Part shown: in pieces, positions 1-6,425 of the stretch
Position numbering within the stretch: position 1 is the first letter of the stretch
Layout of the letters: every line of letters starts with the position of its first letter
Source: Chloroflexota bacterium
GTDB taxonomy: Bacteria; Chloroflexota; Ktedonobacteria; Ktedonobacterales; Ktedonobacteraceae
Direction of reading: 5' to 3'
Length of the DNA stretch: 6,959 bases
Assembly: GCA_021828635.1 (NCBI GenBank)
Contig: JAJZEJ010000290.1
Location: 1-6,959 of the forward strand
Notes under the pieces: generated by a model
The model's input: only the letters and a program-made list of their open reading frames with translations
The model's database searches: none
What the model was told of the DNA's origin: nothing
Program-made: the position numbers and the translations under genes

Positions 1-58
1 TTAATGAAGAGCTATTTCCATAGGTGTCATGTGAAAGGGAAAAGCGCAAAAGCCAAAT

Positions 59-189
59 GTAGGGACCGATGATGTGTTTTACAAAATAATCTGGGTTGTG
101 GTGTAGGGACCGATTGATTGCATCTGTTTGGCCCATCAGCCAAGCATACCCAATGCACCCGACACACGGACGCGATCATCGGTCCCTAC
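59..189. repeat. Element bounded by 15-bp inverted repeats, with an internal copy
   Basis: GTAGGGACCGATGAT (59-73, plus) is exactly complementary to 175-189. A third copy, GTAGGGACCGAT (103-114, plus), lies between. The right end overlaps the last codons of the RSH synthetase gene, and its CTA provides that gene's TAG stop (186-188). In the RSH transcript the arms could form a long-range stem after the stop. I see no flanking target duplication. It could be a small non-autonomous mobile element or a palindromic intergenic repeat; the part below 59 holds nothing I can identify. Confidence 0.6.
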
Positions 190-2636
190 TTGCCTAAATC
201 GCGCTTGACGTGCGTGATATCTTTGATGCGTTGCAGGCGCGTGAACAGGCGCTCTAGTTGATAGAGGCTATCGATCTCCAGCGTAGCTGTGATGACGACG
301 GTTTCGCGGTCGCTGTGCAGGCGCGTATTCACAGAGGTCATGTTGACACCAACATCCGAGACGACAGTGGCGATATCGCGTAGCAGGCCAGAGCGATCAC
401 GGGCCGTGATGACAATGGGAGCCATGTAGAGCGGCTGATTCATGCTGACCCAACTGACGTTGATGAGACGCTCCTGGTCGCGGTCACGATGGCGGCGAAT
501 ATTCTGGCAATCGGCCCGATGCACAACCACACCCTTACCCCGGCTGACAAAACCAACAATCTCATCGCCGGGCAGTGGACAGCAACAGTTAGCCAGTTTG
601 GTGAGCAAGCCACTGACACCAGCAACCTGCAATTGCGCGGAGGCAGTAGGCTTACTGGTGGGAGCCGTGGTGGTCAGCACATCACTCTGGCTCTCATCCT
701 TCGTCTCCTTGACCTCTCTGCCTTCACGTTGCCAGTGTTCGACCAACTTCACCGCAGCAGCATGAGGACGAATATCATCCGCGCCGATGGCTGAAAGCAC
801 ATCATCAATATCTTGTAGACGATACTCCTCGCACAACCAGCGTTCGGCATCCTCGTTGATCATCTCGATACCGCGTGAGCCAAGCAGCAATTTGAGTTCG
901 CGGTCCAGGCGCTCACGGCCAATCTGGATATTAATATGGCGCTCATGCGTCTTGAGATAGCGCCGTATCTTGCTTTTAGCGGCTGCCGTGCGGGCAAAAT
1001 TGAGCCAATCACGTGTTGGGTGCGCGGTACGGTTGGTGACGATATCGACGATCTCGCCGCTCTTGAGTTCGTAGTCCAGCGGCACCATGCGTGTCACCAG
1101 GCGATCACCATCGCCGGCTCCCATTTCAGTTACGATGCGTGCGCCCGCGCAGCTATCGCCAATTTTCGTATGCACCCGATAGGCAAAGTCCAGTGGCGTT
1201 GAGCCGACAGGCAGGTCTTTGACCTCACCTTTTGGTGTGAAAACGAAAATCTGCTCCTGAAAGATATCGTCCTTGACCGCATCAGCAAACTCAGTATCGC
1301 TGGTGGAGACTGAGCGCAGATCATGTTGCCAATCATTGAGTTGGCGTAGCCAGGAGATAAGTTCCCGTGCCGAGGCTGAGGCTGCATCACCCACGTCTTT
1401 ATAATGCCAGTGCATGGCAACACCATATTCGGCCATTTCATGCATCTTATGCGTGCGAATTTGAATCTCGACGAGATGGTCATCCAGGCAAAAGACGGTT
1501 GTATGCAAGGCGCTATAGCCATTGAGCTTAGGATTGGCGATAAAATCTTTAATACGCCCCTCTTTTGGCCTCCACAGACTATGCACATGACCGAGCGCCA
1601 GATAACAATCCTGCGTACTACCAACCAGGATACGGAAAGCGATCAGATCGTGTATCTGCCCGATGTCTACCACCGATTTGACATCTTTGAGTTGCCCAGT
1701 ATCCTCGCCACTGCGCTGAAGCTTTTTATAGAAACTATACAGATGCTTAACGCGCCCAGAAACCTCAGCATTGACGCCAATAGCGGCCATTTCGGAACGC
1801 AAAATGGCGCAGACACGGGCCACATAGGAGCGCCACTGATTGCTCTCTTCCTCGACGATGCTGCGCACCCAGGTATACTTGTCCGGCTCCAGAATCTGGA
1901 AGGCTAGGTCTTCCAGTTCGCTCTCCATGCGCGACATACCCAGACGACCGGCCAGGGGTGCATAAATTTCGCGCGTCTCTTGCGCCATATAATAGCGTTC
2001 TTGCTGGTCGCCAACATAGGCAGGTTGTGTCAGCATACGCATAGCATGCAGGCGATAGGCTAATTTGAGCAGGACTACACGCGGATCATCGGCCATCGCC
2101 ACAAACATCTTGCGTACCGTTTCGGCCTGTTGACGGCGTAGAGCTTCACGTGCGCGGCGGCGCTTGCTTTCAGCTGGCGAAATGGCCGCCTCTTCGCGCT
2201 CAACTTCTTCCGGTGTGGCTTTGGAGGAGACCTGTCGTTTAGTACGTTCCAGGATATTTAGACGTAGCATACTACCGATGATACGAGCCGTCGGCAGACC
2301 AAGCAACTGCTCGACCAGATTAAGCTCAAGCAGGTCTGCATCTACTGCCTCAAAGAGCAAACCAGCCGAGACGCCAATCGCATCGATATGCATCTCCGCC
2401 AGGATGGTCGCCACAGCCAATGCATGTTCTAACGGTGGAATCGGGCGAGTGCCAATAACACCCTGACAACGCTCGCGTGCCAGCCGCAACGCTCGCGCAA
2501 CCAGTTCCAATTCTGGCGGAGACATGTAGTAGTGCGTGAGCGTAAGCAGGTTTGCAATCTCTTTTTCAAAATCACGCACTACCGTTTGTTGTTCATGTTG
2601 ATTATGTTGCTCGAAAACACCATCTATTATATACAT
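186..2636 (-). CDS. RSH-family (p)ppGpp synthetase with a degenerate hydrolase domain
   Basis: This is a full-length RelA/SpoT homologue of 816 residues from the ATG at 2636; numbering below uses that start. The order is pseudo-HD hydrolase (about 27-205), synthetase (about 285-410), TGS (about 463-537), zinc-finger (CCC 684-686, H706, C710) and ACT (about 739-814). The synthetase looks functional: GRVKHLYS with R295, DLIAFR with D330, RIKDFIA (361-364), LNGYSALHT, and EIQIRT with the catalytic E390. It should transfer pyrophosphate from ATP to GDP/GTP, and the TGS/ACT half should sense stalled ribosomes. The hydrolase appears dead: the usual HDVVEDT is FEAVDAD (95-101) and LADRLHN is LAYRLHA (D to Y194, N to A198), although H71 remains. 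The TGS carries a short extra loop before MVPLDY. The start is uncertain: a TTG at 2669 would add 11 residues, and neither start has a convincing Shine-Dalgarno. It lies downstream of its paralog, possibly in one transcript. The synthetase call is confident; absence of hydrolase activity is inferred. Confidence 0.93.
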   Translation of the reverse strand: MYIIDGVFEQHNQHEQQTVVRDFEKEIANLLTLTHYYMSPPELELVARALRLARERCQGVIGTRPIPPLEHALAVATILAEMHIDAIGVSAGLLFEAVDADLLELNLVEQLLGLPTARIIGSMLRLNILERTKRQVSSKATPEEVEREEAAISPAESKRRRAREALRRQQAETVRKMFVAMADDPRVVLLKLAYRLHAMRMLTQPAYVGDQQERYYMAQETREIYAPLAGRLGMSRMESELEDLAFQILEPDKYTWVRSIVEEESNQWRSYVARVCAILRSEMAAIGVNAEVSGRVKHLYSFYKKLQRSGEDTGQLKDVKSVVDIGQIHDLIAFRILVGSTQDCYLALGHVHSLWRPKEGRIKDFIANPKLNGYSALHTTVFCLDDHLVEIQIRTHKMHEMAEYGVAMHWHYKDVGDAASASARELISWLRQLNDWQHDLRSVSTSDTEFADAVKDDIFQEQIFVFTPKGEVKDLPVGSTPLDFAYRVHTKIGDSCAGARIVTEMGAGDGDRLVTRMVPLDYELKSGEIVDIVTNRTAHPTRDWLNFARTAAAKSKIRRYLKTHERHINIQIGRERLDRELKLLLGSRGIEMINEDAERWLCEEYRLQDIDDVLSAIGADDIRPHAAAVKLVEHWQREGREVKETKDESQSDVLTTTAPTSKPTASAQLQVAGVSGLLTKLANCCCPLPGDEIVGFVSRGKGVVVHRADCQNIRRHRDRDQERLINVSWVSMNQPLYMAPIVITARDRSGLLRDIATVVSDVGVNMTSVNTRLHSDRETVVITATLEIDSLYQLERLFTRLQRIKDITHVKRDLGK

Positions 2637-2683
2637 ATGCGTATACACAAACCTGTATAAACTATCCAATTCCGTCTAGTATC

Positions 2684-2712
2684 AGCATAATCTATGGTTC
2701 GCTAGAACGCAA
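2684..2712 (-). promoter_or_regulatory. Weak candidate promoter for the downstream RSH gene
   Basis: On the minus strand there is TTGCGT (2707-2712), a 17-base spacer and TATGCT (2684-2689). The hexamers match the consensus at 3/6 and 4/6. The predicted transcription start, near 2677, gives a leader of about 40 bases to the ATG at 2636. The gap between the RSH genes has no clear terminator, so co-transcription with the upstream paralog is equally possible. Confidence 0.25.
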
Positions 2713-2746
2713 TAGCTCTTTATACCGATAGCAATTTTGTCTCTCT

Positions 2747-4006
2747 CTATTTCGTTGCGAGCGCACGCTCGACGCTGACCACGTTCTTAACCTGACGCAG
2801 GCGGCGGAAAATGCGTTCGATCTGGTCATGCACACCATTAGCCGCATCGATCTCCAGCGTCACCGTGATAACGGCCTTTTGGGAGGAGATATTCGTCGAG
2901 GATGTTACCGAGGTCATATTAATGCTGGCATCCGCAACTACAGCCGCGACATCGCGCAAGAGGCCGGAACGATCATGTGCGACAATCGTAGCCATCACCA
3001 GGTATGCCTCCGGCTCAATCTGCAACCAGTTGATCTCAACCAACGCTTTCGAGTTCTTACGATAACGCTGTAACGAGCGGCAATCTGCCCGATGCACAAG
3101 CATACCTTTTCCTGGATTGAGAACACCTACGATAGAATCGCCTGGAATGGGACAACAGCAAGAGGCCAGTTTCACCAGCACGCCGTTTAAGCCATCCTCG
3201 TTGCCATTAACATGATGGTGTTTTTTCGGCGTACTGCCTTCATCATCAGGTGCTGGTAAGTAGGGTTGAAGATACGGTAAAAGCAATGGCATAAGTTGAT
3301 CTGTGTGCAAGTCTTCACGGCCTAGCGCGACGTAAAGATCATCTAGATTGCTATACTTCTTTAACAATTGAGCGGCCTCATCCTTATACACTTGCTGAAG
3401 TACTGCCTCCAGTTCACCTGTCAGCCCGCGCAGACCGGCAGCCTTGAGAGCCAGGTCCAGGCGCTCGCGTCCAAGTTGCAGGTTGATCTCGCGTTCATAA
3501 GTCTTGAGATAGCGGCGAATCTTGTTGCGAGCCGCCGCTGTGCGTGCGAACGAGAGCCAGTCGCGCGTCGGATGCACGGTACGATTTACCATGATATCTA
3601 CGATCTCGCCGCCTTTAAGTTCGTAATCCAGCGGCACCAGACGTGTTACCAGACGCCCAGTATCATCCTGATTGGTGATAATCCGCGCTCCAGCACAATG
3701 ATCGCCGATATCGGTGTGGATGCGATAGGCCATATCCAGCGGTGTTGAACCACGCGGCAGGTCTTTGACCTCACCTTTGGGCGTAAAGACAAAAATCTGC
3801 TCCTGAAAGAGATCGCCTTTGACGGCCTCGACAAATTCATCGGCGCTCTGTTGGGGCAGTTCGCGTTGCCACTGGCGCAATTGCTCAATCCAGGAGACCA
3901 TCTCACGGTAGGAAAGCTTCCAGCTATTGACCGCGGCTTCATCCTTGCCAACCCGTTCTTTAAGATACCAGTAGCTAGCAACACCATAATCGGCGGTGCG
4001 TTGCAT
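2747..4006 (-). CDS. C-terminal (TGS / zinc-finger / ACT) part of the interrupted RSH gene
   Basis: This open frame continues the upstream hydrolase gene after its in-frame TAG. The coding similarity resumes immediately after the TAG (TDIQIRTHE, 4007-4033), and the first ATG is at 4006. The 419 residues from that ATG contain the end of the synthetase domain, TGS (about 70-140, with EQIFVFTPKGEV and the conserved YRIHTDIG), a helical region with RDWLSFARTAAA, the zinc-finger (CCC 283-285, H305, C309) and ACT (about 338-416). These are the ribosome- and tRNA-sensing regulatory modules of long RSH proteins. All the motifs are well preserved, which argues against long-standing decay. No Shine-Dalgarno precedes the ATG at 4006, so independent translation would need re-initiation after the TAG; otherwise this part is made by readthrough, or not at all. 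It may be one half of a recent pseudogene or the result of a sequence error. Domain identity is confident; expression as a separate protein is doubtful. Confidence 0.6.
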   Translation of the reverse strand: MQRTADYGVASYWYLKERVGKDEAAVNSWKLSYREMVSWIEQLRQWQRELPQQSADEFVEAVKGDLFQEQIFVFTPKGEVKDLPRGSTPLDMAYRIHTDIGDHCAGARIITNQDDTGRLVTRLVPLDYELKGGEIVDIMVNRTVHPTRDWLSFARTAAARNKIRRYLKTYEREINLQLGRERLDLALKAAGLRGLTGELEAVLQQVYKDEAAQLLKKYSNLDDLYVALGREDLHTDQLMPLLLPYLQPYLPAPDDEGSTPKKHHHVNGNEDGLNGVLVKLASCCCPIPGDSIVGVLNPGKGMLVHRADCRSLQRYRKNSKALVEINWLQIEPEAYLVMATIVAHDRSGLLRDVAAVVADASINMTSVTSSTNISSQKAVITVTLEIDAANGVHDQIERIFRRLRQVKNVVSVERALATK

Positions 4007-4033
4007 CTCGTGCGTGCGTATCTGAATGTCGGT

Positions 4034-4036
4034 CTA
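4034..4036 (-). other. In-frame TAG interrupting the upstream RSH gene
   Basis: The codon series reads GAG AAT CGT TAG ACC GAC ATT CAG ATA, that is ENR-stop-TDIQI. The frame is identical on both sides, so this is a nonsense codon and not a frameshift. Alignment to the neighbouring paralog (CLDDHLVEIQIRT) puts the TAG opposite a Leu four residues before the conserved IQIRT. One base change from CAG, TTG, TGG or AAG would create it. TAG also ends both RSH genes at their normal C-termini, so general reassignment of TAG in this genome is unlikely. Confidence 0.9.
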
Positions 4037-5185
4037 ACGATTCTCCAGGCAGAAGACGGTCGTGTGTAGCGACTGATAGCCGTTGAGCTTAGGCGTGGCA
4101 ATGAAATCTTTAATGCGTCCATCCTTTGGTCGCCACAAAGCATGAATATGGCCCAGCGCGAGGTAGCATTCATGATCTGAATCGAGCAGAATGCGGAACG
4201 AAACCAGATCATGCACCTGGCTAATCTCGTTGCCATTCTGGCGCGGCATCTCGTCTAGCTTGCGATTGATGCTGGCTAGATGTTTCTGCCAGGCATGGAT
4301 TTCGGCGTGGATACCAGCGCGTTCCATCTCCTCTTGTAGCTTGCGACAAACCTGCTCGATGTAGGGACGGCGGCGCTCGACTTCAACCTCGACCTCATGT
4401 GCGAGTTTCTGGTACTTTTCCGGTTCCAGATAGCTCAGCGCCAGGTCTTCTAATTCGGCCTGTACCAGGGCCATACCTAGACGGCGAGCTAGCGGCACAT
4501 AAATCTCGCTGGTCTCATGGGCGGTATTCTGCTGCTGCGTTGGGGACATCGCACCCAACGTGCGCATATTATGCAGGCGATCAGCCAGTTTCAACACGAC
4601 CACACGCGGATCCTCGGCCATTGCCAGCAGCATCTTGCGCACCGTCTCGATGCGCTGACGCCGCTTATCGATGACCGGCACAGGTTGCTCACTCCGCTCC
4701 CCTCGCTCCCCGTCCTTCGCGGAAAATTTCGTCGGCACTTTCCCTGCCAGGATATCGAATTTGGTCACACCATCGACAATCACAGCCACTGTCGAACCAA
4801 ATTGAGCGCGTACATCGTCCAGCGAATACTCGGTATCCTCAACTACATCGTGTAACAAGGCCGCCACAATCCCATCGGCATCGATGCGCATACCGGCCAG
4901 CAAAAAAGCCACTTCGAGCGGGTGCTGAATATACGGCTCGCCCGAACGACGCATAGCTCCATTATGTGCCTTATTCGCCAGTTTGTAGGCGGCACGAATC
5001 TTCTCAATATCCTGTTTCGTCAGATATTGCCGTGTTAGTACCAACAAATCTTCTAGCGTCATCTTGGATGGGGTAGGACTAGTATCCAGCGTTGCCACTT
5101 TTGTAATCGTAAAAGTTGGCGTGCTGGCGGCCTGGTTAAACTCAGTGGTCATCATTTTATACCTGCATGTCATACTGCGTTCCAT
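4034..5185 (-). CDS. RSH-family ppGpp hydrolase, N-terminal part, truncated by TAG
   Basis: The 383 residues from the ATG at 5185 contain an intact HD-type ppGpp hydrolase domain (about 45-215) and most of a synthetase domain. Hydrolase residues seen are H88 in YIQHPLEVA, H112-D113 and E116-D117 in LLHDVVEDT, and D202 and N206 in LADRLHNMRTL. These match the Mn-binding and catalytic set of bifunctional Rel/SpoT, which removes pyrophosphate from (p)ppGpp. The synthetase looks decayed: GRxKHxYS is AWQKHLAS, so the ATP-stacking Arg is W299 and the Tyr is Ala, while D326, RIKD and LNGYQSLHT remain. Beyond the TAG, the catalytic EIQIRT reads DIQIRT. The ATG at 5185 is preferred because AAGGA ends 8 bases upstream; a TTG at 5206 would add 7 residues, and an ATG pair near 5155 is an alternative. 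A strong promoter lies about 170 bases upstream. As written, the product would be a hydrolase lacking all C-terminal regulatory domains. Readthrough would give 812 residues. Confidence 0.85.
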   Translation of the reverse strand: MERSMTCRYKMMTTEFNQAASTPTFTITKVATLDTSPTPSKMTLEDLLVLTRQYLTKQDIEKIRAAYKLANKAHNGAMRRSGEPYIQHPLEVAFLLAGMRIDADGIVAALLHDVVEDTEYSLDDVRAQFGSTVAVIVDGVTKFDILAGKVPTKFSAKDGERGERSEQPVPVIDKRRQRIETVRKMLLAMAEDPRVVVLKLADRLHNMRTLGAMSPTQQQNTAHETSEIYVPLARRLGMALVQAELEDLALSYLEPEKYQKLAHEVEVEVERRRPYIEQVCRKLQEEMERAGIHAEIHAWQKHLASINRKLDEMPRQNGNEISQVHDLVSFRILLDSDHECYLALGHIHALWRPKDGRIKDFIATPKLNGYQSLHTTVFCLENR

Positions 5186-5631: not shown

Positions 5632-5940
5632 TTAGCCACGGGTGACGCGGACCTTGTCGAAGCAGGAACTACAATAGACAGGGCGATCATTCTTGGGCAA
5701 GAATGGAACCTGTGTCTCAGTTCCGCACTCGGCGCAAATGACGGTATGCATCTCGCGGGGAGCGCGTTCAGAGCGATTGCTCGTGTTGCCAGCCGAAGCA
5801 CGACGTGCGGAACGGCAGGAAGGGCAACGAGCAGGCTGATTCATCAGCCCCTTCTGCTGGTAGAACTCTTGTTCTCCTGCGGTAAATGTAAAATCATTTC
5901 CGCAGTCACGGCACTTTAGGGTTTTGTCAACGAAGTTCAA
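5632..5940 (-). CDS. Small twin zinc-ribbon protein
   Basis: This 102-residue soluble protein has two four-cysteine zinc-binding units. The first is CRDC (10-13) with RCPSC (C39, C42) around the segment FTFTAGEQEFYQQKG. The second is CAEC (69-72) with CSSC (90-93) around TQVPFLPKNDRPVY. A polar, basic linker (about 44-65) joins them. Proteins of this shape are, from general knowledge, common as conserved hypotheticals in Chloroflexota; the cellular role is unknown, and nucleic-acid or protein binding is only a guess. The TTG start at 5938-5940 is chosen because AAGGAGG lies exactly 8 bases upstream and because the conserved family N-terminus begins here. The frame stays open upstream to an ATG at 6135, but those 65 residues have no zinc-ribbon similarity and cover the probable promoter and leader. 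It has its own transcription unit, between the peptide gene and the RSH pair. Confidence 0.88.
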   Translation of the reverse strand: MNFVDKTLKCRDCGNDFTFTAGEQEFYQQKGLMNQPARCPSCRSARRASAGNTSNRSERAPREMHTVICAECGTETQVPFLPKNDRPVYCSSCFDKVRVTRG

Positions 5941-5948
5941 ACTAGGGA

Positions 5949-5955
5949 CCTCCTT
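5949..5955 (-). promoter_or_regulatory. Consensus ribosome binding site for the zinc-ribbon gene
   Basis: AAGGAGG on the minus strand, 8 bases before the TTG start. It decides the start codon against the far-upstream ATG at 6135. Confidence 0.85.
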
Positions 5956-6084
5956 GTGATATGTTGGTAATCCTCCGGGTCCATATCTAGCAGGTGTCAC
6001 CAGTTTTTTCTCTCCCCCTACCAGCGTGGGATACGATATCTGGGCGATCACTGGATGCGAGACCGAGATTGGATACCGGAAGAA

Positions 6085-6113
6085 AGCATACACTATCTCA
6101 TGGGGGTTTGCAA
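6085..6113 (-). promoter_or_regulatory. Probable promoter of the zinc-ribbon gene
   Basis: The minus strand reads TTGCAA (6108-6113), a 17-base spacer and TATGCT (6085-6090). Each hexamer matches 4/6, with ideal spacing. It would give a leader of about 140 bases before the TTG at 5940. The hexamers are moderate, so this is a suggestion. Confidence 0.4.
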
Positions 6114-6425
6114 GGGCTTTACAGGCAGTTTTCACAGCGATACCAAAATTTTAATGAATTCTTTATACGTTGCCAGAATCGAATGATAGTAGTAGAGACC
6201 GATTATCGCACCTCTCTATACCTCACACCGGCAATAACGTATTCCAAATGCATAAACTGCCTGACACCCACGAGGGATGTCACTACATCTATTATACGCC
6301 TGTGGCATATTACTATGCCTTCATTGGAGAAAATATATGTAATATTATCCATAGAGGGTATCAGGCATTTTACATCATCCGAATAGCTGGTAAGGGGTGT
6401 TCCTTAATTTATCATCCCAAACAAT
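6114..6425. other. Intergenic region between the peptide gene and the zinc-ribbon promoter
   Basis: No supported gene is present. Plus-strand frames cross this stretch but lack ribosome binding sites and run antisense through the peptide gene. Three small hairpins are visible: TAAGG/CCTTA (6390-6405), GGCATA-ttac-TATGCC (6304-6319) and GATGT-cact-ACATC (about 6276-6289). None is followed by a T-run on the minus strand. A degenerate copy of the dispersed repeat lies at 6192-6209. Confidence 0.55.
6192..6209 (+). repeat. Degenerate copy of the dispersed GTAGGGACCGATGATCGC repeat
   Basis: GTAGAGACCGATTATCGC matches the copy at 172-189 (opposite strand) at 16 of 18 positions. It is intergenic and about 6 kb from the other copies, which suggests a genome-wide intergenic repeat. 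A chance match is possible for a single two-mismatch copy. Confidence 0.45.

Follow-up and report, generated by a model that had tools for sequence, protein, structure and literature searches.

The window, a stretch of 6,959 nucleotides forming a Ktedonobacteria (Chloroflexota) contig, contains two long RelA/SpoT homologue (RSH) genes, U (upstream) and D (downstream), that are arranged head to tail on its minus strand. The D gene (186-2636) is a complete, synthetase-type long RSH of 816 amino acids from the ATG at 2636, its frame being open from a TTG at 2669, and Pfam matched HD_4, RelA_SpoT, TGS, AH_RIS, and ACT_4 in it. U starts with an ATG at 5185, preceded by AAGGAAG, and is interrupted by a TAG at 4034-4036 (residue 384), inside the synthetase domain (SYNTH); the same frame continues to 2747. 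The part before the stop (4034-5185, 383 residues) harbors the hydrolase domain (HD) and the beginning of SYNTH (HD_4 and part of RelA_SpoT in Pfam), and the part after it (2747-4033, first ATG of the frame at 4006) the end of SYNTH, TGS, a partial RelA_AH_RIS match, and ACT_4. D therefore carries HD, SYNTH, TGS, and ACT in one protein, as a long RSH does, and U does so only with read-through of the stop. The preliminary description of this DNA had treated U as one open frame from 5185 and overlooked the TAG, so that its coordinates read through the stop. For each gene, the 120 listed homologues (the best 120 of about 8000) were 67-100% identical, and the named relatives of both were Ktedonobacteria.

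Opposite Losses of Catalytic Residues in U and D

The motif readings behind the proposal that U and D are tandem RSH paralogs with opposite catalytic decay were confirmed, and the Pfam matches and the 120 listed homologues of each gene speak against a chance resemblance. By alignment, U has intact HPLEV, HDVVEDT (4832-4852), and LADRLHN (4568-4588) motifs in HD, a decayed ATP site in SYNTH (AWQKHLAS for GRxKHxYS, 4271-4294), and Asp for the catalytic Glu in DIQIRT (4013-4030). In D, the synthetase motifs are intact, including GRVKHLYS of the ATP site (1734-1757), HDLIAFR, NGY, and EIQIRT with its catalytic Glu and Gln (1452-1469), and those of HD have decayed from HDxxED to FEAVDAD (2334-2354) and from LADRLHN to LAYRLHA (2043-2063), as previously described. 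Neither protein has both sites intact as in a bifunctional Rel[HS]: U lacks the ATP-stacking Arg and the catalytic Glu, and D lacks the HDxxED and LADRLHN residues.

Residues were counted in 121 rows per gene, namely the window and the best 120 of the homologues, a non-random sample mostly of the window's own lineage. The hydrolase residues of U (HP His, His-Asp, Glu-Asp, Asp, and Asn) were retained in all 121 U rows. All 121 D rows likewise kept the Arg, Lys, Asp, second Arg, Tyr, Glu, and Gln of SYNTH. The D rows had uniformly lost the His-Asp pair of HDxxED and the Asn of LADRLHN, and the Asp of the latter was Tyr in 121/121. In U, the ATP-stacking Arg was replaced by Trp in 105 rows and retained in 16, which form one clade; the Gly next to it was lost in 121/121, as was the Tyr of the YS pair, a position at which only 94 of 127 other RSH rows have Tyr. 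The catalytic Asp was retained in 120 U rows, the second Arg, NGY Tyr, and Gln in 121, and the catalytic Glu in 115, with Asp in the remaining six (the window and five close homologues). The motifs first reported for U were thus read correctly, although neither synthetase loss is universal among its relatives; Asp-for-Glu is a local change, and the widespread lesion is the loss of the ATP-stacking Arg.

Two sub-lineages with different decay were distinguished, lineage 1, which includes Ktedonobacter, Dictyobacter, Thermogemmatispora, and the window, and a second one, lineage 2. The residue table by lineage comprised 27 U and 27 D rows of lineage 1 (U1, D1) and 13 U and 14 D rows of lineage 2 (U2, D2), after removal of frames below 560 amino acids (L092 D, L095 U, L101 U, L108 U, the broken L135 D, L141, and L142) and of STAND fusions above 1000 amino acids. 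U2 retained the ATP-stacking Arg in 10/13 rows and lost the catalytic Glu in 13/13 (Gln in nine, Asp in two, Asn in two); its Gln was changed to His in 11/13. D2 lost the His of HDxxED in 12/14 rows and the Asn in 14/14, and retained the Asp of LADRLHN in 11/14. At the positions conserved among the 127 other RSH rows, HD (32 positions) had losses at 16 in D1, 18 in D2, none in U1, one in U2, and 20 in Escherichia coli RelA, and SYNTH (40 positions) at seven in U1, 12 in U2, three in D1, and two in D2. In its TGS and C-terminal domains, D kept the residues that are conserved among typical long RSHs. U2 had lost all 15 conserved C-terminal positions, and Pfam found no RelA_AH_RIS in the three U2 proteins examined; the lineage-2 hydrolase therefore seems, from these losses, to have been freed from the ribosome.

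Distribution and Gene Order in the Class

PF04607 was searched in 47 genomes of the class of Ktedonobacter racemifer, a class whose members live mostly in soil. U and D were adjacent on the same strand in 43 of 45 fetched loci and in G010 (L001), hence in 44/47 genomes, a count that takes in pairs cut by contig ends; exactly two PF04607 matches were present in 30/47. The division between U and D is thus class-wide and old and not special to the window's organism. The spacing between the U stop and the first Met in the D frame ranged from overlaps (4 bases in L093, L094, and L098) up to 636 bases. In the window, no terminator-like or promoter-like site was found at 2600-2800, and an Rfam search gave no match at the gathering threshold.

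A second RSH frame was present in 12 of 80 loci of a contig scan, all 12 from Ktedonobacteria, and the other 68 had one; a contig scan with the single protein P0001 returned no relative, while an alignment-based scan did recover relatives. In a phylum sample of 251 genomes, 30 of them of the class, at least two PF04607 matches were found in 13 of 221 non-class genomes, one of which (G183) was a single gene counted twice; the remaining 12 carried the additional match on another contig.

One genome of the class (G011, locus L091) contained a single Rel of 889 amino acids, whose best alignments showed 49% identity with U and 50% with D. All tabulated catalytic residues of HD and SYNTH were intact in it, as in a bifunctional Rel[HS]. 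It is flanked by TGT upstream and RsgA downstream (Pfam). Within the fetched stretches, the pair was preceded by a TGT homologue in 21/28 lineage-1 loci and followed by an RsgA homologue in 4/15 lineage-2 loci; a sigma-70 gene (one confirmed by Pfam) took the downstream position instead in 19 lineage-1 loci. The shared flanks place the single gene and the pairs at one ancestral locus and therefore support duplication in place.

Phylogeny

Of the 90 Ktedonobacteria rows in a midpoint-rooted FastTree analysis of 219 rows, 89 fell within a single clade (1.0). With 52 rows hand-chosen from the 219, IQ-TREE on the whole protein recovered Ktedonobacteria (100/100), D1+D2 (100/100), U1 (100/100), and U2 (99/98). 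U and D thus do not fall into distant RSH clades. In approximately unbiased (AU) tests on the whole protein, U1+U2 was not rejected (p 0.31), nor was L091 outside all copies (p 0.233), and U1+D1, as expected from independent duplications, was rejected (p 0.0037). By domain, the SYNTH tree grouped D1+D2 (99) and the HD tree had little resolution; U1+D1 was rejected on SYNTH (p 0.044), D1+D2 was not rejected on TGS plus C-terminus (p 0.231), and U1+U2 was rejected on neither (0.493 and 0.479, respectively). No AU test rejects a single duplication, and two duplications are rejected on the whole protein. Ongoing gene conversion was not supported as the source of the disagreement among domain trees, as same-genome and different-genome U-D identities were nearly equal in lineage 1. 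AlphaFold models were too weak for a comparison of conformations, with a mean pLDDT of 60.6 for the U relative P0003 (26 sequences) and 56.9 for P0123, which is identical to D (32 sequences).

Interpretation and Alternative Explanations

A bifunctional Rel was probably duplicated in situ and in tandem, early in Ktedonobacteria, and then split into a hydrolase-type U and a synthetase-type D; we assign this reading a probability of roughly 0.78. Phylogeny, residue tables, and the presence of L091 at the same locus all point to the tandem duplication and divided activities that the preliminary description had suggested. Its idea of an event particular to this lineage holds insofar as the pair arose within Ktedonobacteria, and it gives way to a split that spans the class and in which the lost residues differ between sub-lineages. 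One duplication fits best, and two are possible.

In the proposed mechanism, Rel would have been copied head to tail in place, early in the class. U would hydrolyse (p)ppGpp and have a pseudo-synthetase domain ([Hs]), and D would synthesise (p)ppGpp and have a pseudo-hydrolase domain ([hS]), so that D might produce the alarmone on starved ribosomes and U might clear it. The dead half of each protein may persist as a module with a structural or allosteric role, which has been reported for RelA and Acinetobacter SpoT. The activities of U and D, their ribosome control, and their co-expression are inferred from sequence.

Several observations weigh against this interpretation. D retains the HP His in 119/121 rows. 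The pair is not found in three genomes of the class, as G011 has one gene, G027 has D alone, and G013 has no PF04607 match. The placement of L091 is weakly supported, and U2 falls outside the rest at 85/92 in IQ-TREE. The TGS plus C-terminus tree gives U2+D2 (99) and U1+D1+L091 (90), contrary to one duplication; lineage-1 U keeps the synthetase Asp, second Arg, Tyr, Gln, and mostly Glu, with the ATP-stacking Arg still present in the 16 rows noted above; and the window's own U is interrupted by a stop codon. The last three points are also the grounds for the main alternatives.

Independent tandem duplications in the two sub-lineages, at the same locus and with parallel division and the same gene order, would account for the TGS plus C-terminus tree and for the different residues lost in the sub-lineages. 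The grouping of D1+D2 on the whole protein and the rejection of U1+D1 there and on SYNTH speak against them. Decayed halves change quickly, however, and mutual attraction between them may pull like copies together artificially; two duplications are therefore considered rather unlikely but conceivable.

U may also still be bifunctional, with a strong hydrolase and a weak synthetase like that of E. coli SpoT, Trp perhaps stacking ATP in place of Arg. The retained synthetase residues counted above agree with this, as does the conservation of lineage-1 SYNTH, which equals that of D (mean pairwise identity of 76.4% in U and 77.0% in D). On the other hand, the Gly beside the Arg is lost from every U row, and lineage 2 has lost the Glu in all 13 rows and the Gln in 11 of them. 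The loss of synthesis by lineage-1 U would rest on one strictly conserved Arg, the adjacent Gly, and a less conserved Tyr, and residual synthesis may persist; a truly bifunctional U appears improbable.

That U is broken in the window's organism and D alone is functional is suggested by the in-frame TAG within SYNTH. The stop column is Leu in 120/120 listed U homologues, and a sense codon occupies it in 39/39 U frames of the class loci (38 genomes) with a motif that the script could locate. The nearest relative, P0003, is identical to the window's U at 375/383 residues before the stop and 422/427 after it, counts that omit the stop and the next codon, both of which differ. This identity stays high past the stop, and there is therefore no downstream decay in U. 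A search with the short U protein alone yielded no near-identical truncated form among the matches listed (best 71%). The stop may equally be a real allele or a sequence error, and even the 383-residue product, which contains HD, might still hydrolyse (p)ppGpp. A non-functional U in this organism is therefore quite unlikely.

The transfer of proteobacterial SpoT and RelA to give U and D, for which a similar functional pattern and the decay of E. coli RelA HD motifs at the same places could be cited (the inactive HD motif being shared by D only), is rejected by tree and by motif at the present sampling and has almost no probability left: the FastTree analysis placed E. coli RelA and SpoT apart from the Ktedonobacteria clade, neither U nor D groups with them, and D has RIKD (1545-1556), the RxKD form also found in E. 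coli SpoT and L091, versus EFDD in E. coli RelA. The ExDD motif is a feature of SYNTH in proteobacterial RelA. The earlier view that the duplication was independent of RelA/SpoT is upheld by this placement.

A Second Chloroflexota Family and Other Unusual RSHs

A further group of Chloroflexota, the family of G176, had at least two PF04607 matches in 36/39 genomes (G176 and 38 others). Twenty H-type and 20 S-type proteins (L222-L261) were compared, and 19 genomes gave both. The H-type kept HDxxED in 19/19 readable proteins and the Asn in 20/20, and had lost the SYNTH Arg, Asp, and Glu in 20/20 as aligned. The S-type kept GR, Asp, Tyr, Glu, and Gln in 20/20, with ExDD in 20/20, and had lost the E of HDxxED and the Asn of RLHN in 20/20; its HP His was kept in 20 and its His-Asp pair in 18. 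This family resembles U and D in having two long RSHs with opposite decay. It differs in that the genes are unlinked (on different contigs or, in G272, on one contig but some 2 Mb from each other), the S-type has ExDD where D has RxKD, and both types lie outside the Ktedonobacteria clade. The family apparently represents a separate division of activities, judging from its motifs.

A wider reading joins these results: complete division of Rel into separate hydrolase-only and synthetase-only enzymes would have arisen more than once in Chloroflexota, through one or two tandem duplications at a single Ktedonobacteria locus and again at unlinked loci in the second family; the Ktedonobacteria products would be a matched pair from one transcript; the Trp-bearing pseudo-synthetase of U would still bind guanine nucleotide as a sensor; and the hydrolase of one lineage would do without the ribosome-binding AH/RIS region. 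Taken as a whole, this combination is put forward tentatively and is more doubtful than probable.

Other RSH variants were observed in the class. Third, U-like copies of 646-716 amino acids occurred at other loci in G003 (L138), G007 (L139), and G040 (L140); AH_RIS had no match in L138 and L139, the two examined, and the HDLxxxR Arg was also lost in L139 and L140. G035 (L137) contained an extra D-like copy of 578 amino acids with no AH_RIS or ACT match, and G029 (L136) an extra RSH of 656 amino acids with a partial HD, outside the Ktedonobacteria clade in the FastTree analysis. In G034 (L135:2785-5251), D is split over three overlapping frames on a 6.03-Mb contig, the frameshifts being real or sequence errors. 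In G027 (L134), an HD protein of 144 amino acids (3-434, minus strand) lies divergently beside the lone D (638-3259); it has HDVVEN and KLADLRDN and scored 27.5 bits for HD_4 against a cut-off of 27.2, and is perhaps a small hydrolase replacing U. Three genomes encoded RSH-like proteins of 1041-1132 amino acids fused to a C-terminal AAA/STAND-type ATPase (L143:2015-5137 in G038, L144:1733-5128 in G048, and L145:1658-4954 in G014), with PF01637 (nSTAND1 in two), a Walker A motif, and two RSH active sites that both look decayed; the literature search found no published account of such fusions. Frames of 1096-1203 amino acids with weak PF04607 matches were present in further genomes. In the window, a small protein upstream of U on the same strand (5632-6135, minus) had two treble-clef zinc-finger matches (zf_Tbcl and zf_Tbcl_2).

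Comparison with Known Systems

Moraxellaceae are a described case of complete RSH subfunctionalisation, with SpoT[Hs] and RelA[hS] (Atkinson 2011, PMC3153485). In Acinetobacter, SpoT was shown to be a long RSH with hydrolase activity only; its pseudo-SYNTH has lost GDP binding, and R249, R277, Y329, D272, and Q347 in Thermus numbering are lost from it (PMC9974481). As in the Moraxellaceae pair, hydrolysis and synthesis appear from the motifs to be fully divided between two long RSHs with all domains, and the pseudo-SYNTH is retained in the hydrolase. The Moraxellaceae proteins derive from the ancient RelA/SpoT duplication, whereas U and D are tandem neighbours that arose within Ktedonobacteria. 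The relA and spoT genes are unlinked in Acinetobacter. Lineage-1 U also differs from Acinetobacter SpoT in keeping most nucleotide and catalytic residues, having lost mainly the equivalent of R249; this was the only one of the five lost in the window's U, when the Thermus Rel numbers (R249, D272, R277, Y329, and Q347) are matched to motifs by spacing, as inferred here.

Chloroflexi were reported to have Rel[HS], some with small hydrolases, and the name Ktedonobacter does not occur in the available text of that survey (PMC3153485). The bifunctional Rel[HS] of other Chloroflexota, the type to which L091 belongs, is of the same family, domain order, and phylum as U and D. It is encoded by one gene and both of its sites are intact, whereas one site has decayed in U and one in D. 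RshA-RshD are lineage-specific extra Rel copies, labelled [HS], of which RshB was noted for HD divergence (PMC3153485). They resemble U and D as lineage-specific second Rel copies and differ in that the available text of PMC3153485 describes no matched hydrolase-only partner. In the titles and abstract openings of the open literature, no published account of such a tandem pair or of Ktedonobacteria ppGpp enzymes was found. U and D therefore appear, from their sequences, to represent a RelA/SpoT-like division that was apparently reached independently and in tandem.

The reasons why most bacteria join the opposing activities, the making and the destruction of the starvation signal ppGpp, in one Rel, and the role of dead domains after the two part, have been studied mainly on RelA/SpoT and on one Acinetobacter SpoT. 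U and D offer partners that lie side by side together with a living, motif-complete, unduplicated relative at the same locus (L091), so that the situation before the split can be compared directly with that after it. The second Chloroflexota family would provide a further replicate of the division.

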